The notes below the pieces were generated by a model that saw only the letters and a program-made list of their open reading frames with translations, was not told where the DNA came from and did not search any database. A stretch of DNA of 64,000 nucleotides from Streptomyces albus subsp. albus (GTDB lineage: Bacteria > Actinomycetota > Actinomycetes > Streptomycetales > Streptomycetaceae). Below, piece by piece: positions 10,974-28,789 of this stretch (within the stretch, counting starts at the first letter, position 1; the number at the start of each line of letters is the position of its first letter). Made by a program: the position numbers and the translations under genes. The stretch is taken from contig NZ_JOID01000002.1 in the NCBI RefSeq assembly GCF_000719865.1, forward strand, positions 124,001 to 188,000, written 5' to 3'.

Positions 10974-12263
10974 GTGAGCGACAACTCAGTAGTACTGCGG
11001 TACGGGGACGGCGAATACCAGTTCCCCATTGCCGACAGCACTGTCGGCAACAAGGGCTTCGACATCGCGAAGCTCCGCAACCAAACCGGTCTGGTGACCC
11101 TGGACAGCGGTTACGGCAACACCGCGGCATATCAGTCGGCGATCACCTATCTCGACGGTGAGCAGGGCATCCTGCGCTACCGCGGTTACCCGATCGAGCA
11201 GCTCGCCGAGCACAGCACCTTCCTCGAGACCGCGTATCTGCTGATCAACGGTGAACTCCCGACGGGCGACCAGCTCGCCGGTTTCCAGAACGAGGTCACC
11301 CAGCACACGCTGCTGCACGAGGACGTCAAACGCTTCTACGACGGCTTCCCGCGCGACGCGCACCCGATGGCGATGCTGTCCTCCGTGGTCAGCGCGCTGT
11401 CCACGTTCTACCAGGACAGCCACAACCCGTTCCACCCGGAGCAGCGCCACCTCTCGACGATCCGGCTGCTGGCCAAGCTGCCCACGATCGCCGCGTACGC
11501 GTACAAGAAGTCGATCGGCCACCCGGTCGTCTACCCCAGCAACGATCTCGGCTATGTCGAGAACTTCCTGCGGATGACCTTCTCGGTGCCGGCCGCCGAG
11601 TACGAGCAGAACCCGGTCATGGTCAGCGCGCTGGAGAAGCTGCTGATCCTGCACGCCGACCACGAGCAGAACTGTTCGACGTCGACGGTGCGCCTCGTCG
11701 GCTCCTCGCAGGCCAACATGTTCGCCTCGATCTCGGCCGGCATCTGCGCGCTCTGGGGCCCGCTGCACGGCGGCGCCAACCAGTCGGTGCTGGAGATGCT
11801 GGAGGGGATCAAGAACTCCGGCGGCGACGTCGACACCTTCATCCGCAAGGTGAAGAACAAGGAAGACGGTGTGAAGCTCATGGGCTTCGGACACCGTGTC
11901 TACAAGAACTTCGACCCCCGGGCGAAGATCATCAAGGCCGCCGCGCACGACGTGCTCGCCTCCCTCGGCAAGTCCGACGAGCTGCTGGACATCGCGCTCA
12001 AGCTGGAGGAGCACGCGCTGGCCGACGACTACTTCGTCGAGCGCAAGCTCTACCCCAACGTGGACTTCTACACCGGTCTGATCTACCGGGCCATGGGCTT
12101 CCCGACCGAGATGTTCACCGTGCTCTTCGCGCTCGGCCGGCTGCCGGGCTGGATCGCCCAGTGGCACGAGATGATCAAGGAGCCGGGTTCCCGGATCGGC
12201 CGGCCGCGCCAGATCTACACGGGCGTCGTCGAGCGGGACTTCGTTCCGCTGGAGAAGCGCTGA
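10974..12263 (+). CDS. gltA: Citrate synthase (type II)
   Basis: The 429-residue protein is a full-length citrate synthase, condensing acetyl-CoA and oxaloacetate to citrate at the entry of the TCA cycle. Landmarks are GILRYRGYPIEQLAEHSTFL, DHEQNCSTSTVRLVGSS, GPLHGGANQSVLEML (catalytic His), VKLMGFGHRVYKNFDPRAK (catalytic His, CoA loop) and NVDFYTGLIYRAMGFP (catalytic Asp). An in-frame GTG at 10962 is possible, but GTG 10974 is preferred: GAGGG sits at normal spacing and the protein then begins SDNSVVLRYGDGEY like its homologues. It stands alone with a strong terminator at 12308-12347. Confidence 0.97.
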   Translation: MSDNSVVLRYGDGEYQFPIADSTVGNKGFDIAKLRNQTGLVTLDSGYGNTAAYQSAITYLDGEQGILRYRGYPIEQLAEHSTFLETAYLLINGELPTGDQLAGFQNEVTQHTLLHEDVKRFYDGFPRDAHPMAMLSSVVSALSTFYQDSHNPFHPEQRHLSTIRLLAKLPTIAAYAYKKSIGHPVVYPSNDLGYVENFLRMTFSVPAAEYEQNPVMVSALEKLLILHADHEQNCSTSTVRLVGSSQANMFASISAGICALWGPLHGGANQSVLEMLEGIKNSGGDVDTFIRKVKNKEDGVKLMGFGHRVYKNFDPRAKIIKAAAHDVLASLGKSDELLDIALKLEEHALADDYFVERKLYPNVDFYTGLIYRAMGFPTEMFTVLFALGRLPGWIAQWHEMIKEPGSRIGRPRQIYTGVVERDFVPLEKR

Positions 12264-15856: not shown

Positions 15857-16606
15857 TCAGGTGGCGGCGGGCGCCCCCGCGCCGACGACCGGGGCGAGAT
15901 AGCGGTGGAGCGCGGCCTTCAGTTCGGCGAAGTAGGCCTCGCGCTCCTCGCCCTCGTGGCTCATGGCCAGCTCCATCCCCGAGGTGAAGAAGACGAACGC
16001 CAGGGTGGCCGCGCGTTCGCACTGCCCCGCGGGCAGGCCGGGCGCGCGCAGGGCGATCAGCTCGGCCGTGCGGGCCCGGAAGACGCCGTCGAGCGCCTCG
16101 TGCTCGTCGGCGATGTCCTGGGGCAGTCCGGGGGCGTGCATCAGGGCGAGCGAGGCGGGGTTGCGGCGGATGAAGCCGATCAGCGGGTCGATGATCCGGT
16201 CCAGGGCCTCGGAGAGCGGGAGCATGGCGTTCTCCGAGGTGAAGACCTGGCCGTGGGCCTCGCGCATCCGGTGCAGCAGCCGGCCGCCGAGCTCGACGGC
16301 GATGGCCTCCTTGTTCGGGAAGAACTGATAGAGCGTGCCCGGGGAGACGCCCGCCTCGCGCGCGATCGCGTTGGTGCTGGCCCCGTCGTAGCCGTGGTCG
16401 CAGAAGACCCGGGCGGCCGCCTCCAGCAACTGCTCGATGCGGCGCTCCCCGCGGGCCTGGCGGCGCCGCGGCCTGGCCGCGGCCGGCGGCCGCTCCGCGC
16501 CGGGCCGCTCCGGGGGGCGGGCCCCGTCGCCCCGCTGCCCGGCGGGGGGCTCCTCGCCCGCTGCCCCCGGCCGGTTCCCCGGCGCCGTCGGCTGCTTCTC
16601 GGACAC
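15857..16606 (-). CDS. TetR/AcrR-family repressor
   Basis: The 249-residue protein has a disordered Pro/Ala/Arg-rich N-terminal extension of about 50 residues, then a TetR HTH (IEQLLEAAARVFCDHGYDGA, STNAIAREAGVSPGTLYQFF) and an alpha-helical effector domain ending in AFVFFTSGMELAM. GTG 16606 is chosen because GGGGAAG is correctly spaced. An in-frame TTG at 16651 would add 15 residues but has no Shine-Dalgarno and falls inside the operator. It is divergent from an MMPL exporter, with palindromes at 16651-16672 and 16682-16697 between them, so it probably represses both itself and the exporter. The ligand is unknown. Confidence 0.9.
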   Translation of the reverse strand: MSEKQPTAPGNRPGAAGEEPPAGQRGDGARPPERPGAERPPAAARPRRRQARGERRIEQLLEAAARVFCDHGYDGASTNAIAREAGVSPGTLYQFFPNKEAIAVELGGRLLHRMREAHGQVFTSENAMLPLSEALDRIIDPLIGFIRRNPASLALMHAPGLPQDIADEHEALDGVFRARTAELIALRAPGLPAGQCERAATLAFVFFTSGMELAMSHEGEEREAYFAELKAALHRYLAPVVGAGAPAAT

Positions 16607-16650
16607 GCGCGTCTTCCCCGGACTCTCTGCCTGTCTGGTGGCGGTTGACA

Positions 16651-16672
16651 AATGCGAGCGGTCACTCGCATT
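16651..16672. promoter_or_regulatory. TetR operator candidate A (8+6+8 palindrome)
   Basis: AATGCGAG and CTCGCATT form perfect arms around CGGTCA, in the divergent TetR/MMPL gap. The GCGAGCG...CTCGC core is repeated in the palindrome at 16682-16697, as expected for two sites of one repressor. Confidence 0.7.
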
Positions 16673-16681
16673 CTAAGGAAC

Positions 16682-16697
16682 GCGAGCGATCGCTCGC
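16682..16697. promoter_or_regulatory. TetR operator candidate B (perfect 16-bp palindrome)
   Basis: GCGAGCGATCGCTCGC is a perfect palindrome sharing its half-site with operator A, nine bases away. A third, unrelated palindrome follows at 16700-16718. Confidence 0.7.
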
Positions 16698-16699
16698 TT

Positions 16700-16718
16700 T
16701 TGCCAAGTCTATTGGCAA
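16700..16718. promoter_or_regulatory. Third palindrome in front of the MMPL gene
   Basis: TTGCCAA (16700-16706) and TTGGCAA (16712-16718) are perfect arms around GTCTA, 25 bases upstream of the exporter start. The half-site differs from the GCGAGCG sites, so it may bind a different regulator or simply overlap the promoter. Confidence 0.45.
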
Positions 16719-16742
16719 TCGGGGGAAGGGGACACCTGCGTC

Positions 16743-19058
16743 ATGTCTGCTGACAACGGCCGTACGGGCGGCTGGACCCGGCTCGTCACGGCCCGGCCGA
16801 GACTGTCCCTGCTGGTCGCCCTGGTCTTCACGGCCCTGGCCGTATTCGCGGGGAGCGGTGTCGCGGACCGCATGGGCAGCGGCGGCTTCGAGGCACCGGA
16901 CGCCGAGTCCACCGCCGCCACCGAGGCGCTCGACCGGCGCTTCCCCGCCTCCGGGCCCAATCTGCTCCTGCTCGTCGACGCCTCCGGGACCTCCGTGGAC
17001 GACCCGGCCGTCGCCGCGGAGGGCCGGAAACTCGCCGAGCGGCTGAGCGGGGAGAAGTCCGTCACCGGCGTCACCTCCTACTGGGCCACCCGCTCGCCCG
17101 GGCTGCGCGCCGAGGACGGCCGGCAGGCCCTGATCACCGCCCGGATCGAGGGCGACGAGAACACCGTGAACCGCACCCTGGAGCGGATCGCCCCCGGACT
17201 TCGCGGGGAGCACGGCCCCGTCGAGGTGTCGATCGGCGGCCGGGCCGCCCTGCAGAACGAACTGCAGACCACCGTCCAGGAGGACCTGCTCCGTGCCGAG
17301 CTGATCGCCCTGCCCGTCACCCTGGTGCTGCTGATCATCGTCTTCGGCAGCGCCGTCGCCGCCCTGCTCCCGCTGCTCATCGGGGTCGTCGCGATCCTGG
17401 GCACCAACGCGGTACTGCGCGGGCTCACCGAGCTCACCGACGTCTCCGTCTTCGCCCAGAACCTCACCACGGCGCTGGGCCTCGGGCTCGCCATCGACTA
17501 CGCCCTGTTCATCGTCCGGCGGTACCGGGAGGAGCTGGCCGGCGGCGCCGGACCCCGCCCCGCCATGGGCACGACCCTGCGCACCGCCGGGCGCACGGTC
17601 CTCTTCTCCGCGCTCACCGTCGCCGTCTCACTGGCCGCGATGCTGGTCTTCCCGCAGTACTTCCTGCGCTCCTTCGCCTACGCCGGCATCGCCGTGGTGC
17701 TGCTGGCCGCGCTGGCCGCCCTCTCCGTGCTGCCCGCCGCGCTCGTGCTGCTCGGCCACCGGGTGAACGCCCTGGACCTGCGCAGGCTGCTGCGCCGCGG
17801 CCGGCCCGCCGCACCCGACACCGGCGCGGGCTGGGCCCGTACCGGCCGGCTGGTGATGCGCCGGGCACCGTTCTTCGCGATCGGCACCACCGCCGTCCTG
17901 CTGCTGCTCGGAGCCCCCTTCGCCGGGGCGACGTTCGGCACCGTCGACGACCGCCAGCTCCACGCCACCGCCGAATCCCGCGTGGTTCAGGACCACTTGC
18001 GGGACGGCTTCCCGGGCACACCCGGCGGAGCGGTCGAGGTGCTGGCCGAGGGCGGCCCCTCGGCGCGGGAGCTGGACGAGTACAGCGCGCGGATCTCCCG
18101 GCTTCCCGACGTACTGCGGGTGGACGGGCCCACCGGGCAGTACGCCGACGGGGAGCGGGTCCGCGAACCGGGCCCCGCCGAGGCGGCGCGCACCGCCGGA
18201 AGCGCCGCCCAGATCAGCGTGCTGCCGCGCGGCGAGGCCGTGGACACCGCGAGCCAGGAGCTGGTGCGCGAGGTGCGGGCCGAGAACGGGAAGGCGCCGT
18301 TCGACGCCTCGGTCACCGGCACCGCCGCCGTCCTCGTCGACACCAAGGACGCCATAGCCGACCGGCTGCCCTGGGCACTGGCGATCATCGTGCTCACCAC
18401 ACTGCTGCTGGTCTTCCTCCTCACCGGCAGTGTGCTGATACCGGTCCAGGCCGTGGTGCTCAACGCCCTCAGCCTCACGGCGATGTTCGGCGCCCTGGTG
18501 TGGGTCTTCCAGGAGGGGCATCTCTCCGGGCTGCTGAACTTCACCGCCACGGGCGACATGGAGACCACGCTCCCCGTGCTGATGTTCTGTGTCGCCTTCG
18601 GCCTCTCCATGGACTACGGCGTCTTCCTGCTCTCCCGGATCAAGGAGGAGCACGACCGCAGCGGCGACCACCGGGGCGCGGTCGTCTTCGGACTCAGCCG
18701 TACCGGGGGGCTCATCACCGCCGCGGCGCTGATCCTCGCCGTGGTGATGATCGCCATCGGAGCCTCCCGGGTCACCAACACCAAGATGCTCGGCTTCGGT
18801 ATCGCCCTGGCCGTGCTGATGGACGCCATGGTGGTGCGCACCCTGCTGGTCCCGGCGGTCATGGCACTCACCGGCAAGGCCACTTGGTGGGCCCCGGGCC
18901 CGCTGCGCCGGCTGCACGCCCGCTTCGGCCTGAGCGAGGGGGAGAGCGCCGCTGCCGCCGGGGAGGTGGCAGGTGACGGGGGAGGAGAGGCCGTACCGGA
19001 CGCCCGGGGCACTGCCCGGCGTGCCCCGGCCGGTGCCGGGCCTTCCCGGACGCCGTAA
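16743..19058 (+). CDS. MMPL/RND-type membrane transporter
   Basis: The 771-residue protein has the duplicated MMPL architecture. TM1 (about 18-38) is followed by a large extracytoplasmic loop, then TM2-6 including GLAIDYALFIVRRYREE, a second loop, and TM8-12 including FGLSMDYGVFLLSRIKEE. The conserved Asp-Tyr pairs in TM4 and TM10 (IDYALF, MDYGVF) are the proton-relay positions of RND exporters. The length matches Streptomyces MMPL proteins that export lipids or small hydrophobic compounds. It is controlled, by position, by the divergent TetR gene. The last 60 residues are a soluble low-complexity tail. The substrate cannot be predicted. Confidence 0.92.
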   Translation: MSADNGRTGGWTRLVTARPRLSLLVALVFTALAVFAGSGVADRMGSGGFEAPDAESTAATEALDRRFPASGPNLLLLVDASGTSVDDPAVAAEGRKLAERLSGEKSVTGVTSYWATRSPGLRAEDGRQALITARIEGDENTVNRTLERIAPGLRGEHGPVEVSIGGRAALQNELQTTVQEDLLRAELIALPVTLVLLIIVFGSAVAALLPLLIGVVAILGTNAVLRGLTELTDVSVFAQNLTTALGLGLAIDYALFIVRRYREELAGGAGPRPAMGTTLRTAGRTVLFSALTVAVSLAAMLVFPQYFLRSFAYAGIAVVLLAALAALSVLPAALVLLGHRVNALDLRRLLRRGRPAAPDTGAGWARTGRLVMRRAPFFAIGTTAVLLLLGAPFAGATFGTVDDRQLHATAESRVVQDHLRDGFPGTPGGAVEVLAEGGPSARELDEYSARISRLPDVLRVDGPTGQYADGERVREPGPAEAARTAGSAAQISVLPRGEAVDTASQELVREVRAENGKAPFDASVTGTAAVLVDTKDAIADRLPWALAIIVLTTLLLVFLLTGSVLIPVQAVVLNALSLTAMFGALVWVFQEGHLSGLLNFTATGDMETTLPVLMFCVAFGLSMDYGVFLLSRIKEEHDRSGDHRGAVVFGLSRTGGLITAAALILAVVMIAIGASRVTNTKMLGFGIALAVLMDAMVVRTLLVPAVMALTGKATWWAPGPLRRLHARFGLSEGESAAAAGEVAGDGGGEAVPDARGTARRAPAGAGPSRTP

Positions 19059-19127: not shown

Positions 19128-19739
19128 TCACTCCGCCGCGCGGGCTGCCTTGATGAAGGAGACGATCAGCTCCGGGTCCTTGACCCCCCGGCTGCTCTCG
19201 ACCCCGCTGGACACGTCCACCCCCCAGGGCCCGGTGGCCCGGATCGCAGCGGTCACGTTGTGCTGGTCGAGCCCGCCGGCGAGCAGCCATTTCTCGCCGG
19301 GCGCGGTGAAGCGTTTCCGGGTCCAATCCCAGGGGACGCCGGCTCCGGGCACCGGGGCGTCGAGCAGGAGGAGGTCCTCCCCCATCGCGCCGCAGCGTGG
19401 CACCCGGTCACGGAACGCCGTGCCGCGGATCAGCGACCATCCACCCGTTTTGAGGGCATCGAAGTACGCTCGGTCCTCCCGCCCGTGGAGCTGTACCCCG
19501 CGGATCCCCGTGATGTTGGCGATGGAACGCACGTCCGGGAGTGGCTGGTTGCGGAAGACTCCGACAGTCAGGACCTCCTCCGGCACGCGCCGCGCCAGTC
19601 TGAGGGCGGTGGGGACGTCCACACGGCGGGGACTGTCCGCGAAGACGAATCCGATGGCGTCGCCGCCCGCCCGGACCGCCGTGTCCACGTCCTCCTCGGT
19701 CCGCAGACCGCACACCTTGACGAACAGTGGAGTCGCCAT
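19128..19739 (-). CDS. trpF: Phosphoribosylanthranilate isomerase
   Basis: The 203-residue TIM barrel has the TrpF signatures. FVKVCGLRTEEDVDTAVRAG includes the catalytic Cys of the KxCG motif, AIGFVFADSPRRV the phosphate/ring contacts, GVQLHGRED strand 4, LLLDAPVPGAG the catalytic Asp, and LAGGLDQHNV with GVDVSSGVESSRGVKD the phosphate loops. It converts N-(5-phosphoribosyl)anthranilate to CdRP. Streptomyces normally lack trpF and use the bifunctional PriA (HisA/TrpF) for this step, so a dedicated trpF here supports a special-purpose pathway. It is the last gene of the leftward cluster, 24 bases after the LysE gene. Confidence 0.93.
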   Translation of the reverse strand: MATPLFVKVCGLRTEEDVDTAVRAGGDAIGFVFADSPRRVDVPTALRLARRVPEEVLTVGVFRNQPLPDVRSIANITGIRGVQLHGREDRAYFDALKTGGWSLIRGTAFRDRVPRCGAMGEDLLLLDAPVPGAGVPWDWTRKRFTAPGEKWLLAGGLDQHNVTAAIRATGPWGVDVSSGVESSRGVKDPELIVSFIKAARAAE

Positions 19740-19763
19740 CCGGATCCCCCGATCTCCGTTATC

Positions 19764-20387
19764 TCACTTGCTGCTGGTAAAGGCGAGTTGGGCGCCGATG
19801 CCGACGAAGGCGGCGGCGAAGGTGCGGCGCATCCAGGTCAGTACCTTGGGACGCTTGATCACGTGGTCCCGGACGGCGGCGGCGAACAGCCCGTACAGGG
19901 CGAAGACGACAAAGGTCATCAGCATGAAGACCGCACTCAGTTCCAGCATGCGCGGCAGCGTGTTCGCCGCTTCGGCCGGCACGAACTGTGGCAGGAACGC
20001 GAGGAAGAAGATCGACAGCTTGGGGTTGAGGAAGTTGATCAGGATGGCCGTGCCCGTGACCCGGGCCGCCGACTGGGCTTCCGTCCCCTCCTCCGGTTCG
20101 CTCATCTTCAGCGTGCCGCGCTCGCGCAGGGTGCTCCAGGCCATGTAGAGGAGGTAGGCCACCCCGAGGTACTTGAAAGCCTGGAAGACGATCGCGCTGG
20201 TGTGCAGGATGGCGGCAAGCCCGGCAACCGCGGCGGCCAGGTGGGGAACGATTCCCAGGGTGCAGCCGAAAGCGGCCACGACACTCGTGCGGAAACCCCG
20301 GTAGAGCCCGGTGGCGATCGTGTAAAGGGCTCCGGTGCCGGGAGACACCACGATGACGAACGATGTGATCAGAAACTCGAGGCTCAT
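19764..20387 (-). CDS. LysE/RhtB-family amino acid exporter
   Basis: The 207-residue integral membrane protein has six predicted helices. The family signature SPGTGALYTIATGLYRGFRT lies after helix 1, and ILINFLNPKLSIFFLAFLPQF is in the middle; the NPK motif is typical of LysE/RhtB exporters. These proteins expel amino acids or their analogues by proton antiport. Its place between trpF and trpC suggests that it exports an amino-acid-like product of the cluster; that is inference. The start is ATG 20387. A gap of 82 bases separates it from trpC. Confidence 0.9.
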   Translation of the reverse strand: MSLEFLITSFVIVVSPGTGALYTIATGLYRGFRTSVVAAFGCTLGIVPHLAAAVAGLAAILHTSAIVFQAFKYLGVAYLLYMAWSTLRERGTLKMSEPEEGTEAQSAARVTGTAILINFLNPKLSIFFLAFLPQFVPAEAANTLPRMLELSAVFMLMTFVVFALYGLFAAAVRDHVIKRPKVLTWMRRTFAAAFVGIGAQLAFTSSK

Positions 20388-20470
20388 GGCTTCCGCTCCC
20401 AGTTGGCACGGATGACCGCCCCACCCCCGCGATGCTTCCGATCACCGGCCCGGGATGGCACGCCCGGTGG

Positions 20471-21328
20471 TCATCCGGTGATCTCTTCGCGGAATGGAGT
20501 GGGCCCGGTCTGGTCTATTGAGGCCACGTTACTGGTTCGGCCCGCCAGAAGGCCGCGCGTCGCGGATTCCAGGTCGGGAGCGCGCATCAGGCTCTCCCCG
20601 ATCAGGAACGCGCGGATGCCCACCCGCGCCAGACGGTCGAGATCCGGGGCGCCGCTGAGACCGCTCTCCCCGACGACCACCCGCCCGGCCGGGGCCTTCG
20701 GGGCCAGTGCTTCCCCGGTGCTCAGAGTGGTCTCGAAGGTCCGCAGGTCACGGTTGTTGATGCCCAGCAGCCGGGAGCGCAGGCGTGCCGCACGGAGCAT
20801 CTCGTGCTCGTCGTGTACCTCGACGAGCACGTCCATCCCCAGGTCGAGGGCGGTGCGCTCCAGTTCCTCGGCCGTCTCGTCGTCGACCGCCGACAGCATG
20901 AGCAGGACGCAGTCGGCTCCCCAGGCCCTGGCCTCGACGATCTGGTACGGGTCGAACATGAAGTCCTTGCGCAGCGCCGGCAGCGATGTCGCGGCGCGGG
21001 CCGCCGCCAGATGGTCGCGGGCGCCGTCGAAGGACGGGGTGTCGGTCAGTACCGACAGACAGGTGGCTCCTCCGGCCTCGTAGGCGCGGGCCAGGGCGGC
21101 CGGATCGAAGTCGGTACGGATGAGCCCTTTCGACGGACTCCGCTTCTTGATCTCGGCTATCAGGGCGTACTCGCCCCGGGCGATCCGCTTCTCCACGGCG
21201 GCCAGGAAGCCGCGCGGGGGCGGCGCGGCCTCCGCCTCGCGGCGCAGTGCCGCCGGCGGCACTGCCTTCTTGGCGGCGGCGATCTCCTCGCGTTTGTACG
21301 CCTCGATGCGGGTGAGCAGGTCGGTCAT
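20471..21328 (-). CDS. trpC: Indole-3-glycerol phosphate synthase
   Basis: The 285-residue protein is a complete IGPS TIM barrel. [12 protein letters not shown] holds the first catalytic lysine, [20 protein letters not shown] strand 3, [20 protein letters not shown] the second catalytic Lys, [14 protein letters not shown] the Asn/Asp segment, VVGESGLSG the catalytic Glu/Ser region and FLIGESLMR the phosphate site. It closes the pyrrole ring of CdRP to indole-3-glycerol phosphate. Its ATG overlaps the trpD stop (ATGA), so the two are translationally coupled. Streptomyces usually carry another trpC for primary metabolism; this one appears to be cluster-specific. Confidence 0.95.
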
Positions 21329-22356
21329 GCCGTTCTCCTGTCAGGAAGGTTCGAGACCGCGGTGAGCCGGTCGAGGCGTTCCCTGGCCTCGCCGGAGTCG
21401 ATGGACTTCTCCGCTGTCCGCACGCCGTCCGCCAGGTCCGCGGCATGCCCGGCGGCGACGAGGGCCGCCGCGGCGTTGAGGACCGACACGTTCCGGTAGC
21501 TGTTCCGCTCGCCGTCCAGGACCGCCAGCAGCGCGCGGGCATTCTCCGCCGCGTCACCCCCGCGGAGTTCCTCCGGGCGGCTGAGCGGGAGGCCCACCTC
21601 CTCGGGCGTGATCCGGAAGGTCCGTACGCTGCCGCCGCGCAGTTCGGTGATGGTGGTCGGGCCGGTGGTGGTGATTTCGTCGAGGCCGTCCGAGCCGTGG
21701 ACGACCAGCGCGCGGACCGAACCGAGTTCACCCAGCACCCGGGCCATCGGTTCGAGCCACCGGGGGGAGAAGACCCCCACGAGATGGTGGCGGACCCCGG
21801 CCGGATTGAGCAGGGGGCCCAGCAGGTTGAAGACGGTTCGCGTGGCCATTTCGACCCGGGTGGCGGCGACATGCTTGAGCGCCGGGTGGTGGGACGGGGC
21901 GAACATGAAGCCGATCCCGGCCTCCTGCAGGCACCGCTCGACTGCCGCGGGGTTCAGACCGGTGCGGACGCCGAGCGCGCCCAGGACATCGGCCGCGCCG
22001 GAGCGGGAGGACAGAGCCCGATTACCGTGCTTGGCCACCGGCACGCCGGCGCCGGCCACGATGAAAGCCGCGCAGGTGGAGATGTTGAAGGAGCCGGACT
22101 GGTCGCCTCCGGTGCCGACCACGTCGACCGCCTCCGCCGGGGCGGACACGCGGAGCATGCGGGAACGCAGCGTGGTGGCCGCCCCGGTGATCTCCTCCAC
22201 CGTCTCGCCCCGGACCCGGAGGGCCATCAGCAGGGCGCCCATCTGTGCGGAGGTCGCCTCGCCGGACATCATCTTGGCGAAGACGTGCGAGGACTCCTCG
22301 CGGGTCAGGGCGGCGCCCGTGGCCGTCTTGCCGAGCAGGGTTCTGAATCGTTCCAT
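21325..22356 (-). CDS. trpD: Anthranilate phosphoribosyltransferase
   Basis: The 343-residue protein has the helical N-domain ([20 protein letters not shown]) and the nucleoside-phosphorylase-like domain with [17 protein letters not shown] (PRPP loop), [21 protein letters not shown] (anthranilate site) and [14 protein letters not shown]. It transfers phosphoribose from PRPP to anthranilate. Two tandem ATGs are possible (22359, 22356); the GGAGG upstream fits the second better. The upstream flavoprotein stop is embedded in ATGATG, so translation is coupled. Cluster context suggests supply of phosphoribosylanthranilate, or of an analogue, to trpF and trpC. Confidence 0.95.
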
Positions 22357-24461
22357 CATGCCTCCGGTCGGATGCCGGCACGGGCGGGTGGCAGGGGCTG
22401 GTCCCAATCGAGTTCGACGTTCTCGCGCCGGTACGGCGTCCAGTCGGTGAGCCCGGTGTCGAGCGTGCGGGCGAACAGATGCCCGCTGTGCACCGCGGCG
22501 GCGATGATCCCGGGCCCCAAGCAGTCCCCGATGCGGACCACGCGGCGGACGCCAGCCGTCGTGAGGGCCTCTGGGTCGCTCGCTCGCAGTTCGTGGTAGA
22601 GGTTGTCGCGCGGCACCATGCCTGTGGCCAGGACGACGGCGTCGGCCGTGACCTCGGTCTCGCGTCCGGTGTAGACGCAGGCCAGTCGGGCTGCCCCCGG
22701 TTCCGTCCCGGCGAGGGAGGTCAGTGGGTGGACGGCCTCGCACAGTTCCAGCAGGCTCCGTGCGATGCGGCGCTGTTCAGCGGTGTACGTGGTGAAGGCC
22801 GAGACCAGGCTCTCCGGCGTCACGAAGGTGACCGAGCAGCCGTGTTGTACGAGGCGTTCGGCGAGAACACCGGCCATGTAGTAGTGGTCGTCGTCGAAGA
22901 CCACCACGCGCCCCGATGGCAGCCGGCCGTCCATGATGTCGTCCGGTGTGAACACCGGTATCCGGTCGAGGCCGGGGACGGGCGCGAGGTGATGGCGTCC
23001 GATGCCGTCCCGGCGCCACGTCGCGCCGGTGGCGACCGCCACCAAGGAGCATCCGGCCTCGCGGACGAGTTCGGGCGTGACCTCGTTGCCCGGCAGCACC
23101 TGCACGTTGCGCATGCCCCGCAGTTGCGTCACCCTCCAATCGCGGACCCGGGCGTAGGTCGCCAGCCCCGGTAATCGGCTCTCCCGGGTGACCCGTCCGC
23201 CCAGTTCGCGCCCGCGCTCCGCGAGGATCACGCTGTAGCCGCGCCGGCCGAGCGCCCGCGCCGCTTCCAGGCCGGCGGGCCCGGCCCCCGCGATGAGCAC
23301 GGTGTCGTCGGTGTCCTTCGCCTCGATCCGCTCGGGGTGCCAACCGCGCCGCCATTCCTCGCCGGTGGTGGGGTTCTGGGTGCAGCGGAAGGGCGCCCCG
23401 GCGCGGTCCCAGGCCACGCAGACATTGCAGCCGATGCATTCGCGGATGTCGTCGAACCGGCCTTCCTCGATCTTGCGCGGCAGGAAGGGGTCGGCGATCG
23501 ACGGGCGGGCGGCGCCGATGAAGTCGAGCGTGCCACCGCGGATCATGGAGACCATCGTGTCGGGCGAGGTGAACCGGCCGACTCCGACGACCGGCTTGCT
23601 GGTGACGCTCTTGACGAACTTGACGTACTGCTCCTGGTAGCCCTCGCCGCTGAAGCGGGCGGTCGCTCCGTCGTTGTCGAAGTTGCTCACGTTGACGTCC
23701 CACAGATCGGGGAGTTCCGCGAGCATCTCGATGGTGTCGTATCCCTCCCCGCCGGCGGTGATGCCGCGGTCGCCCAGCAGATCGTCGACGCTGAAGCGGA
23801 CCGCGACCGCGCAGGTGTCGCCGACCGCCTCCTTCGCGTCCTCGATCAGTTCGCGCAACAGCCGCGCGCGATTCTCGAGACTGCCGCCGTATTCGTCGGT
23901 CCGTTGGTTGCGGCGGCGGGACAGGAAGTTGACGGGCAGCGTCATGTCGTGGCCGGCGTAGACGTAGACGATGTCGAACCCGGCGCGCCGGGCGTTCACG
24001 ACGGCCGCGCGGTGCCAGCGGCGGAAGGCACGGATGTCGTCCTTGTCCATGGCACGCGCCGTGCCCGGGAAGATACCGCGGGTCGCCTCCACGCTCGCGG
24101 CGATGGGTACGGAGCGCGATTCGAGGTTGCTGACGTGAGCGCCGTTGTGCGCCAGTTCGACGCCGGCGAGCGCGCCGTGCTCGTGGATGAGGTCGGTGGC
24201 ACGCGCGAGCTGGGGGATGTCCTTGGCGTCCCAGAGGCGGAGTTCCCGCTGGTGGTTGCCGGAGTGGTGGATGTCGCACTGTTCTGTGCAGACGACCCCC
24301 CAGCCGCCCTCGGCCTTGATGCCGCGCATCGCGGCCACGGAACTGGGGAAGGCGCGTCCCATGCCGTTGCAGTGCGGTACTTGGTAGAAGCGGTTCTTCG
24401 CGGTGACCGGACCTATGCGGACCGGCTCGAACAGGACGTCGTAACGGTCGGGGCGGGACAT
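22356..24461 (-). CDS. Trimethylamine dehydrogenase-like Fe-S flavoprotein (OYE family)
   Basis: The 701-residue protein follows trimethylamine/dimethylamine dehydrogenase. An OYE-type FMN barrel (1-340) has RFYQVPHC; Cys31 matches the cysteine that forms 6-S-cysteinyl-FMN. A 4Fe-4S site follows (CIGCNVC plus a fourth Cys: 342, 345, 348, 360), then two Rossmann-type domains with [10 protein letters not shown] near 387. Tyr168 and His171 of the active site are kept. Two aromatic residues of the trimethylammonium bowl appear replaced (Gln61, and Asn/Asp near 260-264), so the substrate is probably not trimethylamine. A different amine, or an enone as in dienoyl-CoA reductases, is possible. The start is ATG 24461; an extension to 24569 lacks domain support. 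Confidence 0.85.
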
Positions 24462-24495
24462 GGTGGGCCCTCCGGCGTCGGGGTGGTGTCGTCGG

Positions 24496-25230
24496 CTATC
24501 GCGTGGTGCCCGCCGGCTGGGGAGCCGGGTAGCTGCGCGCGCCGAAGATCGCGCTGCCGACCCGCACATGGGTGGCCCCGTGCTCTATGGCGGTGGCGTA
24601 GTCACCGCTCATCCCCATGGACAGGCAGCCCAGACCGTTGCGCGCGGCGATCCTCCCCAGCAGGGTGAAGTGCGGCTCGGGGGGCTCGCCCACCGGCGGG
24701 ATGCACATCAGGCCCACCACGTCGAGACCGTGCTGCCCGCGGCAGATGTCCAGGAAGGCGTCCGCCTCATCGGCGAGGACGCCCGCCTTCTGCGGTTCGG
24801 CACCGGTGTTGACCTGGACGAACAGCCGGGGACGCAGGCCCTGCCGGGCACACTGCCGGGCCAGGGCCTCGCTCAGCGAGGTGCGGTCGACGGAGTGGAT
24901 GACGTCGAACACGGCGACGGCGTCCCGGGCCTTGTTGGTCTGCAGCGGTCCGATGAGGTGCAGTTCGACACCGGGGAACCGGCTCCGCAGAGGTGGCCAT
25001 TTCTCCTGGGCCTCCTGGACGCGGTTCTCACCGTAGACCCAGTGGTCCGCTTCGACGGTCCGGGCGAGCGTGTCCGCCGGAACCGTCTTCGAGGCGGCGA
25101 TCAGGGTGACGGAGCCGGGGTCACGCCCGGCCCGTGAACAGGCGGTGGCCATCTCCTCCCGCACCCGGCGCAGGCCACCGGCCGGGCCGGAGCGGGAGGA
25201 GGACGCGGACTCGTCATGGGAACTGCTCAC
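24496..25230 (-). CDS. YggS/PROSC-like PLP-binding protein (fold type III)
   Basis: The 244-residue protein has the alanine-racemase-like barrel of YggS/PLPBP. LIAASKTVPADTL carries the PLP lysine (Lys48), followed by VYGENRVQEAQEKW, LHLIGPLQTNKAR, LFVQVNTGAEPQKAG, GLMCIPPVG, LSMGMSGDYATAIEHGATHV and RVGSAIFGAR. These proteins usually bind PLP without a known catalytic reaction and influence PLP and amino acid homeostasis. The normal Streptomyces copy lies in the dcw/ftsZ region, so this one is likely a cluster paralogue. The start is GTG 25230 behind GAGGAGAG. An N-terminal Ser-rich stretch of about 15 residues is extra. Gaps to both neighbours are short (34 and 13 bases). Confidence 0.88.
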   Translation of the reverse strand: MSSSHDESASSSRSGPAGGLRRVREEMATACSRAGRDPGSVTLIAASKTVPADTLARTVEADHWVYGENRVQEAQEKWPPLRSRFPGVELHLIGPLQTNKARDAVAVFDVIHSVDRTSLSEALARQCARQGLRPRLFVQVNTGAEPQKAGVLADEADAFLDICRGQHGLDVVGLMCIPPVGEPPEPHFTLLGRIAARNGLGCLSMGMSGDYATAIEHGATHVRVGSAIFGARSYPAPQPAGTTR

Positions 25231-25243
25231 GCTTGTTCTCTCC

Positions 25244-25945
25244 TCAGGAGTATGAGAAGTCCAGCCGACGCCGGCCCGGACCGATCAGGGCCGATGTGGT
25301 GATACGGACTCCGAGCGCCGGCAGACCGGCCTTCAGCTCCGCTTCCAGCGAGATGAGGTCCTGTTCGGCCGAGGCGTGGTGGGCCTCGGCCACGATCAGC
25401 ACCCGGTCGCTCCCGGACGACACGACCGAGGTGGAGCTCTGGCGGTAGGTCCAGCGCCGGGAATGCGCGTTCCCGGCGCGGTCGGCGAAGACGATCTCGC
25501 CCGGCGCCGGGTGCTCGGTGTCACCCTGGAAGGTCACATAGGTCTCGGTCCCCTCGGCCGGGCGCACGGTGATGCCCTCGGAAACCCGCGCCACGTCGAA
25601 GGCCGCGATGGGGATCGCGGAGGCCATGGAGGCGAAGTTGAGGTAGTCGACCAGAGGGTGGAAGCTCGGCATGTCCTTGCTCTTGCGGTAACGCCGCAGC
25701 AGCGCCTCGGACGCGCACCGGTACTGCGTCGGTTTCAGCCCCATCTGGGAGAAGGCCTCACGCCACGCGGCGATCTCCGGCATCTCGGCCTCCGTCGTGC
25801 CCTGCTGCCGGCGGTCGGTCTCCGCGGCCAGTTTCTCCGTGCGCAGAGGGTCGCTCTCGGCTCCGAGAACCCCGTCCGTGGCGACCACCAGGGCCCGGAG
25901 GCCGGGGTGTGCGTCCCATACGGCATCCGCGTGGGTGAAGTACAT
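25244..25945 (-). CDS. B3/B4 tRNA-binding-domain protein (PheRS beta-like)
   Basis: The 233-residue protein matches free-standing B3/B4 domains, which resemble the editing domain of phenylalanyl-tRNA synthetase beta. The region CASEALLRRYRKSKDMPSFH, then PLVDYLNFASMASAIPIAAF, is the typical core; it is followed by a beta-rich segment (YVTFQGDTEHPAPGEIVFAD) and SSTSVVSSGSDRVLIVAEA. Such proteins may hydrolyse mischarged aminoacyl-tRNA or bind amino acids. In a cluster that seems to make or export an amino-acid-like compound, a self-protection (editing) or amino-acid-handling role is possible but unproven. The start is ATG 25945; the extension to 26293 runs over the spacer before pdxH and is rejected. 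Confidence 0.8.
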   Translation of the reverse strand: MYFTHADAVWDAHPGLRALVVATDGVLGAESDPLRTEKLAAETDRRQQGTTEAEMPEIAAWREAFSQMGLKPTQYRCASEALLRRYRKSKDMPSFHPLVDYLNFASMASAIPIAAFDVARVSEGITVRPAEGTETYVTFQGDTEHPAPGEIVFADRAGNAHSRRWTYRQSSTSVVSSGSDRVLIVAEAHHASAEQDLISLEAELKAGLPALGVRITTSALIGPGRRRLDFSYS

Positions 25946-26048
25946 GGTGCCTGTCCTTCTGCGTGGTGGGTGGATCCCGGGGCGCCGGGACCTCTCGGCC
26001 GGATCGGGCCGGGCTTGCGGGGCCCGGCCCGATCCGGAGCGAAAGGCC

Positions 26049-26684
26049 TCAGGGGAAAAGGTGACCCCGGTCCCAGACGCCCTCGGGCTTCGTCCTGTTG
26101 AAGACGAGCCGTTCGTGCAACCGGGACGGCCGGTCCGACCAGAACTCGATGGCGACGGGCCGTATCCGGTAGCCGGTCCAGTGTGGCGGCCGGGGTACGG
26201 CCCCCGTGCCGAAACGCGCGGTTTCGCGCCGGAACGCCTCCTCGAGTTCCGCGCGACCGGCCATCGGCTGGGACTGCCGGCTGGCCCAGGCACCGATCCT
26301 GCTTTCCCGGGGCCGGGACGCGAAGTAGGTGTCGGCCTCCGCCTCCGTGGCGAACTCGACCGGACCGCGGAAGCGGATCTGGCGGCGCACCGACTTCCAG
26401 TGCAGAGCGCCGGAGGCCTGCATGTTGGCGGCCAGTTCGGTCCCCTTGGCCGACTGGGTGTTGGTGAAGAAGACGAAGCCCTCGGGGCTGTGGTGTTTGA
26501 GCAGGACGATGCGGACGTCGGGCATCCCGTCGGCGTCCGCAGTCGCCAGGGCCATGGCGTTGGGGTCGTTGACCTCGGTGTCGGCGGCCTCGTCGAGCCA
26601 CTGGCGGAACAGGTCGAAGGGTTCGGTTTCCGGAGCCTGCCCGACCCGGGGTGCCGCAGGAGCGGCGCTGTGCTGGGACTGCAT
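26049..26684 (-). CDS. pdxH: Pyridoxamine 5'-phosphate oxidase (PdxH-like)
   Basis: The 211-residue protein shows the FMN-dependent split-barrel of PdxH. DPNAMALATADADGMPDVRI is followed by VLLKHHSPEGFVFFTNTQSA, QIRFRGPVEFA, SRIGAWASRQSQPM and the C-terminal PNP-oxidase dimerisation segment RIRPVAIEFWSDRPSRLHER, ending in the conserved W-(x)n-LFP (GHLFP). It oxidises PMP or PNP to PLP. Its presence between two PLP-fold proteins suggests local supply of PLP, or a re-purposed oxidase acting on a pathway intermediate. The start is ATG 26684. In-frame sequence up to 26891 has no homology and overlaps the decarboxylase gene. Confidence 0.9.
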   Translation of the reverse strand: MQSQHSAAPAAPRVGQAPETEPFDLFRQWLDEAADTEVNDPNAMALATADADGMPDVRIVLLKHHSPEGFVFFTNTQSAKGTELAANMQASGALHWKSVRRQIRFRGPVEFATEAEADTYFASRPRESRIGAWASRQSQPMAGRAELEEAFRRETARFGTGAVPRPPHWTGYRIRPVAIEFWSDRPSRLHERLVFNRTKPEGVWDRGHLFP

Positions 26685-26809
26685 GCGAATCTCCTTGTGG
26701 CGGCGGTGTGGCGGCGGTGGTGCCACGGTGCGGCGGCGGCCGACGGAGGACCGTGGCGGCGCGCCCGGCCGGTGCCCGGTGTTCAGGGAGCGCCGGGTGC
26801 CCGGTGGCT

Positions 26810-28087
26810 TCATGCCCCGTGCGTCGCGGCAGCCGGTTCCCTCAACGGCCGGGCCGGGAGTTCCCTCTTCTCCGCCAGGAGATTGCGCCACTTGTCGTGT
26901 TCGCCACCGGGCGAGGTGATCAGGTGGGGCGAGCCGTCGGCGGCCACCAGCACCTCGGCGGCCGGCGGAACGTTCAGGAACTCCATGTGCTGGGTGGCGC
27001 AGTAGGCGCCCACGTCGAGTATCGCCAGGTGGCCGTCGGCGCCGACGCCCTCGGGGACGAGGACGTCACCGGGGAGGATGTAGTCGTTACGCAGGATGGT
27101 GCGTCCGCGCAGGGCAGCGCTGGTGGTGACCGTGCTGGTGATCTCCTTCATGGAGGCGTCCAGGAAGGCGACGTTGTGGTTGCGGTCACGGAGCTGGGCC
27201 GACGGCATGAGCATGCGGCAGCCGTTCGTGACGAGGATGTTGGAGACCGGCGTGCTGATGACGTCGCGCTCCACGCTGAGCAGCAGGGCTCCGGTGTCGG
27301 CCAGGACGTCCCGGGCCGGCTCGAAAAGGAACTTCACGTGCTCCGGGATGTCCATCCGCTCGGCGGACTGCCGGATGCGGATGAAGTACTCCTGCCAGTC
27401 GAAGTGCTTCTCGGACTCCTCCCAGGCGTCATAGTCGAAGCCGTGTCCGCCGGCGAAGTTGACCGACTGGGCGGTGGGGAAGTGGCGCAGGTAGATGTCG
27501 AATACCTGCTCGACGATGCCGACCATGTCCTCCAGCGAGTTGCCGCTGCCGCAGTACACCTCCAGCCCTTCGAGATCGCGGCCGTACTGCTTGAGCAGTC
27601 GGACCAGCTCGTCGAGTTCGGCGTACTTGATTCCGGGCTTACCGGAATCAAGGCTGTCGATGCGGACGCTGATCGTCGGGGCGTTGGTCCGCAGCGCGTG
27701 GGCGACCTCGTCCAGACTGGCCAGGAAGACCGGGTGCCCGGTCGTGTCCCAGAAGTCGATCTCCTGGTCGGAGACATGGCCGGGGGAAACGATGAAACGG
27801 TCGAAACCGAAGCGGCGCAGGATGCGGTACTCGCTCGGCAACTGGACGAGCAGCCCTGTCCCCGGCATGTCTTTCAAGGGCTCCAGAACATGCGGATTGG
27901 AGTTCGGGAAAAACGGAATGTATAACTCGACCCGGCTGTCGAGGCCGCTTTCCACAGCCGCGGTCCTGATGCGGTCGAGGTTCTTTCGGAACTGCGCCTC
28001 GCTGTAAACGAAGACCGGCGTTCCGGCCTCCTCGGCGATGTGGGCGAGGTCGATGTTGTTGAGCCACGAATGAGTCAGTGCGGTCAT
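26810..28087 (-). CDS. LysA-fold decarboxylase homologue lacking the PLP lysine
   Basis: The 425-residue protein aligns over its whole length with fold III decarboxylases such as diaminopimelate decarboxylase. AGTPVFVYSEAQFRKNL opens the barrel; GGHGFDYD (213-220) is the glycine-loop counterpart, EPAR (256-259) the EPGR motif and ILDVGAYCATQHMEFLN the GAY segment. At the expected AxKAN site the sequence reads IPFFPNSN (57-64), so no lysine is available for a Schiff base. The CES motif is replaced by RND (333-335). It may be catalytically dead, lysine-independent or a binding protein. It is the first gene of the leftward cluster; the start is ATG 28087 behind GGAGGG. Confidence 0.82.
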   Translation of the reverse strand: MTALTHSWLNNIDLAHIAEEAGTPVFVYSEAQFRKNLDRIRTAAVESGLDSRVELYIPFFPNSNPHVLEPLKDMPGTGLLVQLPSEYRILRRFGFDRFIVSPGHVSDQEIDFWDTTGHPVFLASLDEVAHALRTNAPTISVRIDSLDSGKPGIKYAELDELVRLLKQYGRDLEGLEVYCGSGNSLEDMVGIVEQVFDIYLRHFPTAQSVNFAGGHGFDYDAWEESEKHFDWQEYFIRIRQSAERMDIPEHVKFLFEPARDVLADTGALLLSVERDVISTPVSNILVTNGCRMLMPSAQLRDRNHNVAFLDASMKEITSTVTTSAALRGRTILRNDYILPGDVLVPEGVGADGHLAILDVGAYCATQHMEFLNVPPAAEVLVAADGSPHLITSPGGEHDKWRNLLAEKRELPARPLREPAAATHGA

Positions 28088-28569: not shown

Positions 28570-28640
28570 GGCCGCGTGCCCGAGTGGTTAGGGAGCCGCC
28601 TGCAAAGCGGTTGACATCGGTTCGAATCCGGTCGCGGCCT
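28570..28640 (+). tRNA. tRNA-Cys (anticodon GCA)
   Basis: The 71-base gene folds into a standard cloverleaf. The acceptor stem is GGCCGCG (28570-28576) with CGCGGCC (28633-28639) and discriminator T. The anticodon loop CTGCAAA is closed by GCCGC/GCGGT, and the T arm is ATCGG-TTCGAAT-CCGGT. The anticodon GCA reads UGC/UGU cysteine codons. The 3' CCA is not encoded. Its layout resembles E. coli tRNA-Cys. Overlapping ORFs on both strands are spurious. Confidence 0.95.
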
Positions 28641-28789
28641 CGCGCAGAAGCCGGCCCGTCCCGTTCTCCCCTGTACCGGCGGGAGAACGGGACGGCCAGG
28701 ATGCGGACGGTTGAGCGGTTGACGCGGGGACGGCTGCGGGCTTGCCCGTGCCGCCTCCGCGGCGGCCCCCGGGGAATTCTCCGCGCGCT

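Follow-up and report, generated by a model that had tools for sequence, protein, structure and literature searches.

A stand-alone B3/B4 protein, CtdA, deacylates canavanyl-tRNA(Arg) (PMC10018355), and a putative LysE-type exporter serves amb, another toxic amino-acid cluster (PMC4357302). In Nocardiopsis and Xenorhabdus, puromycin-like clusters end with a tRNA-Cys gene, and cystocin, a cysteinyl compound, is made by a Streptomyces whose cluster is built in this way (PMC11641026). Here, we analyzed a block of nine genes in Streptomyces albus subsp. albus that joins three consecutive enzymes of tryptophan biosynthesis to a B3/B4 protein, a LysE-family exporter, and a set of vitamin B6-linked proteins, with a tRNA-Cys gene beside it. 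The block lies in a stretch of 64,000 nucleotides (contig NZ_JOID01000002.1, positions 124,001 to 188,000), hereafter the window, in whose numbering all coordinates are given. It is a real, conserved, specialized operon, and its product is probably amino-acid-like, exported, and provided with its own protection at the tRNA level. A literature search, covering neither bioRxiv nor most subscription papers, found no description of this cluster.

The nine open reading frames all lie on the minus strand, run from 28087 to 19128, and are each intact with a normal start and stop. In the order of transcription they encode a LysA-fold (fold type III) protein lacking the pyridoxal 5'-phosphate (PLP) lysine (26810..28087, 425 aa), a PdxH-like flavin mononucleotide (FMN) oxidase of the pyridoxine/pyridoxamine 5'-phosphate (PNP/PMP) oxidase family (26049..26684, 211 aa; Pfam PNPOx), a stand-alone B3/B4 protein of the CtdA-like aminoacyl-tRNA deacylase family (25244..25945, 233 aa; Pfam B3_4), a YggS-like PLP-binding protein (24496..25230, 244 aa; Pfam Ala_racemase_N), a flavoprotein of the histamine/trimethylamine dehydrogenase family (hdh; 22356..24461, 701 aa; Pfam Oxidored_FMN), TrpD of the anthranilate phosphoribosyltransferase family (21325..22359, 343 or 344 aa with the start at 22359 or 22356; Glycos_transf_3), the indole-3-glycerol-phosphate synthase TrpC (20471..21328, 285 aa; Pfam IGPS), a LysE/RhtB-family amino-acid exporter (19764..20387, 207 aa; NCBIfam), and the phosphoribosylanthranilate isomerase TrpF (19128..19739, 203 aa; Pfam PRAI). 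The intergenic gaps in the same order are 125, 103, 13, 34, -1, -4, 83, and 24 nt, and the hdh/trpD and trpD/trpC junctions overlap. An earlier note, made from the letters of this DNA, had described nine leftward genes with short gaps and overlaps, which agrees with this layout, and Pfam and NCBIfam profiles returned the families it had named for trpD, trpC, trpF, LysE, YggS, B3/B4, and PdxH. Its label of a trimethylamine dehydrogenase (TMADH)-like flavoprotein holds for the family; the closest solved relative is histamine dehydrogenase (3k30, 720.6 bits), with TMADH at 544.8 bits.

Genome contigs were searched with an alignment of the LysA-like protein and two peptide patterns only, so that absences are soft; 23 loci were obtained. 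All nine genes occur together in 11 of them, all from Streptomyces (L007-L017), the window not counted. Within these 11 loci, trpF closes the cluster at its 3' end in five and immediately precedes the lysA-like gene in six. Eight genes are present in a twelfth Streptomyces (L094), which lacks trpF in the cluster and carries PRAI genes elsewhere in its genome. Kineosporia (L022) and Roseibium (L026) also have eight genes each, trpF missing, and two metagenome-assembled genomes (MAGs) of proteobacteria (L020, L023) have seven, with no trpF and an EamA transporter in the place of LysE. The Aureimonas locus (L021), truncated by the contig end, retains trpC, lysA-like, pdxH-like, and lysE. Together with the window, and after dropping two second copies (L095 of L015 and L096 of L007), these clusters, termed type A, number 18. 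By sequence comparison, nine genes are kept together across species and seven or eight of them across phyla. The earlier note had accepted failure of the non-trp genes to co-occur elsewhere as a refutation; they were instead found with trpD and trpC in two phyla. Frequency searches found the cluster in 4 of 343 genomes of the genus and in 1 of 396 of the phylum, namely the window's own; four or five candidates were scored per genome, so these absences are soft as well. The scattered presence over two phyla suggests horizontal spread.

The first gene product was placed with diaminopimelate decarboxylase and BtrK by a profile search and an AlphaFold 2 model (mean predicted local distance difference test score 90.1), and it has the overall architecture of fold type III. 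Its match to the NCBIfam LysA profile lies below the cut-off, and no Pfam family was found for it even at E = 1, one chance-level match aside; archaeal relatives carry PF02784. We aligned 184 members of this family, the best 120 of 237 plus 64 from an archaeal query, with two weak LysA-type matches as the outgroup. The Schiff-base position is occupied by Phe in 179/179 readable members (the other five are gapped) and by Lys in both outgroup sequences. Unlike in diaminopimelate decarboxylase and BtrK, the stacking active-site His is also replaced, by Tyr in 183/183 members, and the Cys and Glu of the CESGD motif are lost, with Ile, Val, Thr, Leu, or Ser at the former and Leu, Ile, or Phe at the latter. 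Residues Gly213, Gly214, Glu256, Arg259, and Tyr362, which we take from LysA structures to hold PLP, are invariant in 184/184. The earlier label of a LysA-fold protein holds for the fold, but the PLP lysine is lacking. We have high confidence that the protein works independently of lysine, and PLP or PMP is probably bound in the barrel with no Schiff base being formed. The Lys-to-Phe change extends to an archaeal and candidate-phylum branch; with a family conserved in bacteria and archaea alike, B6 chemistry without the lysine can be tested directly in fold type III. One homologue (P0028) is a fusion with PdxH, which ties the barrel to PMP/PNP oxidation. The archaeal branch comprises L028:3937-5172 and relatives among P0121-P0184 from Pacearchaeota/Nanoarchaeota and candidate phyla; one of its members (P0164) is fused to a methyltransferase. 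LysA-like and/or cluster-type B3/B4 proteins were also seen in Ralstonia solanacearum, Paraburkholderia hayleyella, Verminephrobacter, and Chromobacterium (P0172, P0173, P0257, P0289, P0292, P0299).

In alignments of 9 to 11 rows, the PdxH-like, YggS-like, and flavoprotein members maintain their motifs. True PNP oxidases come closest to the PdxH-like protein (147 bits), which in the 11 rows chosen has the active-site Lys, Tyr-Phe-x-Ser/Thr-Arg, and Arg-Leu-His elements, whose roles we assume from the known enzymes; it is accordingly a predicted PNP/PMP oxidase. The YggS-like protein retains its PLP lysine. Like histamine and trimethylamine dehydrogenases, the flavoprotein keeps the PHCNG cysteine, the CIGCN...C motif, and the GH and D positions; the cysteine presumed to form 6-S-Cys-FMN is present in 9/9 rows chosen, and the four-cysteine motif presumed to bind the Fe-S cluster is complete in 8/9. 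In contrast to those enzymes, it has Phe or Met where we expect the substrate-bowl Trp and sits in another genomic setting. The closest solved relative of the B3/B4 protein is CtdA (66.9 bits), with which it shares the stand-alone form and an RRWxxRQ stretch, whereas it belongs to a biosynthetic-looking operon and not to a canavanine-use operon. TrpC retains its motifs, as we understand their roles, and the TrpD motifs read are retained too. However, the His of the TrpD KHGNR motif, presumably a contact of anthranilate, is present in 27/27 readable canonical actinobacterial copies (sampled as 29 loci, the best-scoring of 52 matches less the window's, two of which did not fit the pattern) versus 9 of 17 cluster copies, where Gln (6) and Met (2) also occur. 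With the acceptor side relaxed in this way, an anthranilate analogue is possible as the substrate. The block shares with tryptophan biosynthesis the three consecutive enzymes TrpD, TrpF, and TrpC, and differs from it in the lack of a trpE-type gene or trpB, in the relaxed TrpD, and in the six unrelated genes joined to it.

We somewhat favor a self-contained, horizontally spread specialized pathway that both yields an amino-acid-like product and protects the producing cell. TrpD would join phosphoribosyl pyrophosphate (PRPP) to an anthranilate-type amino acid, TrpF would isomerize the adduct, and TrpC would close the ring to an indole-glycerol-phosphate-type intermediate. A B6 module of the Lys-less LysA-like protein, the PMP/PNP-oxidase-like PdxH, and the YggS-like PLP carrier, together with the amine dehydrogenase, would form or supply the amino-acid part; LysE, or EamA in two loci, would export the product, and the B3/B4 protein would remove it from mischarged tRNA. 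Among the parts of this scheme, a dedicated pathway is very likely, export of an amino-acid-like product is likely, and the indole-glycerol-phosphate-type intermediate is fairly probable. Specialized metabolism, export, and B3/B4 protection had all been proposed in the earlier note and fit the evidence; its further step, from the indole-glycerol-phosphate-type product to an amino acid, can only be inferred. Such a small cross-phylum operon is a ready target for finding a new amino-acid antimetabolite. Azatryptophan and products derived from the PLP ring were considered as well, and nothing was found in their favor.

The earlier note, parts of which are supported as described, had left a linked tRNA gene unmentioned. 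A tRNA-Cys (anticodon GCA) lies at 28570..28641 on the plus strand, divergent from the operon and 482 bp from the lysA-like start. Beside it, at 28651-28700 and directly behind the tRNA, is an inverted repeat of 20 nt with 90% complementary arms and a 10-nt spacer, possibly a terminator. A tRNA-Cys adjoins 8/18 type-A loci, namely the window, five more Streptomyces with the same divergent arrangement at 328-485 bp from the lysA-like gene, Aureimonas, and Roseibium. It is fairly likely that the linked tRNA-Cys is functional, and its presence points to tRNA-Cys as the species involved, which would either suffer mischarging or supply activated cysteine. Puromycin/cystocin-like clusters likewise have a tRNA-Cys in or beside the cluster, and this operon may be a second setting in which a cluster-borne tRNA-Cys signals tRNA-linked chemistry; in difference from them, none of the nine genes is Pur6-like by family assignment, no Pur6 sequence having been compared and the flanks not having been examined for Pur6.

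The alternative that survives best, which we consider possible though clearly less probable, leaves the nine genes with the roles given above and makes the tRNA-Cys a hitchhiker without a role, an old insertion point or a chance neighbor. It agrees with the presence of the tRNA at just 8 of the 18 loci. Hitchhiking is also possible because other Streptomyces carry additional tRNA-Cys genes that have no cluster genes around them, and on rhodobacterial plasmids the tRNA-Cys most like that of Roseibium occurs in unrelated contexts (five read). However, in six Streptomyces the tRNA itself is kept while the spacer to the lysA-like gene is poorly conserved, and in two alphaproteobacteria the tRNA-Cys follows directly behind pdxH-like on the same strand, by 10 nt in Aureimonas and 134 nt in Roseibium. 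Integrases usually use the 3' side of tRNA genes, whereas the cluster lies on the 5' side, an orientation that does not fit an integrase site and makes this role of the tRNA-Cys less likely. Another tRNA-Cys match exists elsewhere in 6/6 Streptomyces carriers, read as tRNA-Cys in five, and in the window's own genome (G000) the linked gene is an added copy, the other sitting in a Gly-Cys-Val array, which also speaks against a mere hitchhiker. The plasmid settings (L192-L196) include a nearby HipA-family gene in L193 and L195, a nearby MYG1 gene in L192 and L196, and a LysE-family gene 1.4 kb away in L194 and L195. A more elaborate role for the tRNA is unlikely: the host cysteinyl-tRNA synthetase would activate cysteine or an analogue on the linked tRNA-Cys, the Lys-less B6 barrel and its partners would carry out a tethered change or transfer, and the B3/B4 protein would release the product. 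If true, a tRNA would serve as the carrier on which an old family of PLP fold, having lost its Schiff-base lysine, builds a small amino acid.

Relatives of the LysA-like protein also occur in other operons, here called context B. Six such loci from alphaproteobacteria and others (L019, L024, L025, L027, L029, L065) have no trpD or B3/B4, and their partners, in varying sets, are TrpF-like, beta-RFAP-synthase-type GHMP, PurH-like, PurC-like, amidohydrolase, Rieske, and NMT1/THI5-like proteins; L029 also has yggS-like and pdxH-like genes. A second plasmid (L066) carries a stretch nearly the same as that of L065 (Mesorhizobium plasmid MesoLjLa4, L065:1-18959). No linked tRNA-Cys was found at the seven context-B loci scanned. 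By analogy of its beta-RFAP-synthase-, PurC-, and PurH-like neighbors, context B looks like the C-nucleoside chemistry of formycin and pyrazofurin (compare PMC8724604), whereas no such genes occur in the window's nine-gene cluster. We infer that the contexts may share the ribosylation of amino-aryl acids with PRPP. In Amycolatopsis anabasis (L018:3423-11239), the genes around a LysA-like relative include a divergent trpC-like gene as well as genes for an asparagine synthetase, a DUF6545 protein, and an MFS transporter.

Several observations weigh against the proposed pathway. Among the remaining genes there is no evident step from indole-glycerol phosphate to an amino acid, so help from the primary TrpAB or a new reaction is needed. 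The two hints pull apart, because a tryptophan-like product is not expected on tRNA-Cys. No tRNA-Cys was found near 10/18 loci (six Streptomyces with trpF at the 5' end, L010, Kineosporia, and the two MAGs), and in Roseibium a second tRNA-Cys was not found in the 1.88 Mb scanned of ~6.1 Mb. In the LysA-like tree, context B forms a single clade nested among type-A rows, which themselves are not one clade, and since the family sits in context-B operons it may act in ways that are not specific to amino acids. In the proteobacterial clusters, TrpC is 49-57% like the window's, compared with 65% for the flavoprotein, and may thus have been replaced in some. The Kineosporia flavoprotein is short of one Fe-S cysteine, and in Streptomyces lilacinus (L017) pdxH-like and trpD are each in two pieces (11609-12221, 15919-16898), which are frameshifts or assembly errors.

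An account by self-protection, in which the product is an amino acid that attacks PLP enzymes and the Lys-less LysA-like, PdxH-like, and YggS-like proteins trap the adducts and restore PLP, seems improbable to us. Three B6-linked proteins in one operon, the loss of the lysine while the presumed cradle remains, the intact PNPOx motifs, and an exporter and a B3/B4 protein from families able to protect are all consistent with it. However, a resistance protein would be odd in an operon type without a B3/B4 match and in archaea, where the LysA-like family is also found. Less probable still is a second tryptophan-supply module that just boosts indole-glycerol phosphate or tryptophan, to be exported or used in another pathway. 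The retained TrpC motifs, the exporter, and a TrpF at either cluster end depending on the species would suit such a module, whereas trpE-type and trpB genes are not in the set, tryptophan calls for neither a tRNA deacylase nor an amine dehydrogenase, and the acceptor-side His of TrpD is lost in 8/17 copies.

The earlier note had also asked for other trpC, trpD, and priA genes. Other contigs of the genome (6.94 Mb, 99.98% complete) carry a second trpC, a second trpD, trpB, three chorismate_bind (trpE-type) genes, and two HisA/PriA-type genes, and the block is therefore not its only trpC/trpD set. The noted absence of trpE/G and trpA/B from the block holds for trpE-type and trpB, which matched on other contigs only; trpG and trpA were not searched by themselves. 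Although TrpC and TrpD exceed the NCBIfam cut-offs as normal enzymes, these further copies and the synteny across phyla rule out the null reading of that note, primary tryptophan genes beside chance neighbors.

The premise that a separate trpF is unusual in Streptomyces and marks specialized metabolism proved weak. PRAI is present in 89/343 genomes of the genus, and because a separate trpF is not rare it carries little by itself and is a weak marker. The window TrpF scores far above the PRAI cut-off and is the sole match in its own genome. All type-A genomes put to this search were positive, in or outside the cluster (8/8, plus G000, G158, and G258), and orphan copies branch from among the cluster copies in the TrpF tree. 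Seven non-cluster PRAI contexts (L087-L093) had no trpC or trpD homologue within ~8 kb on each side, as judged with valid queries from the window trpC and trpD and with own-genome trpB, trpC, and trpD queries, taken as the longest frames and possibly not in the right frame. A PdxH-family gene stands beside trpF in L090, and a trpE-type gene lies ~5 kb from trpF in L092. The genes flanking the nine-gene block in the window are unrelated to it: on one side they encode a heavy-metal ATPase and an MMPL transporter, and on the other, beyond the tRNA-Cys, a Gfo/Idh/MocA oxidoreductase.

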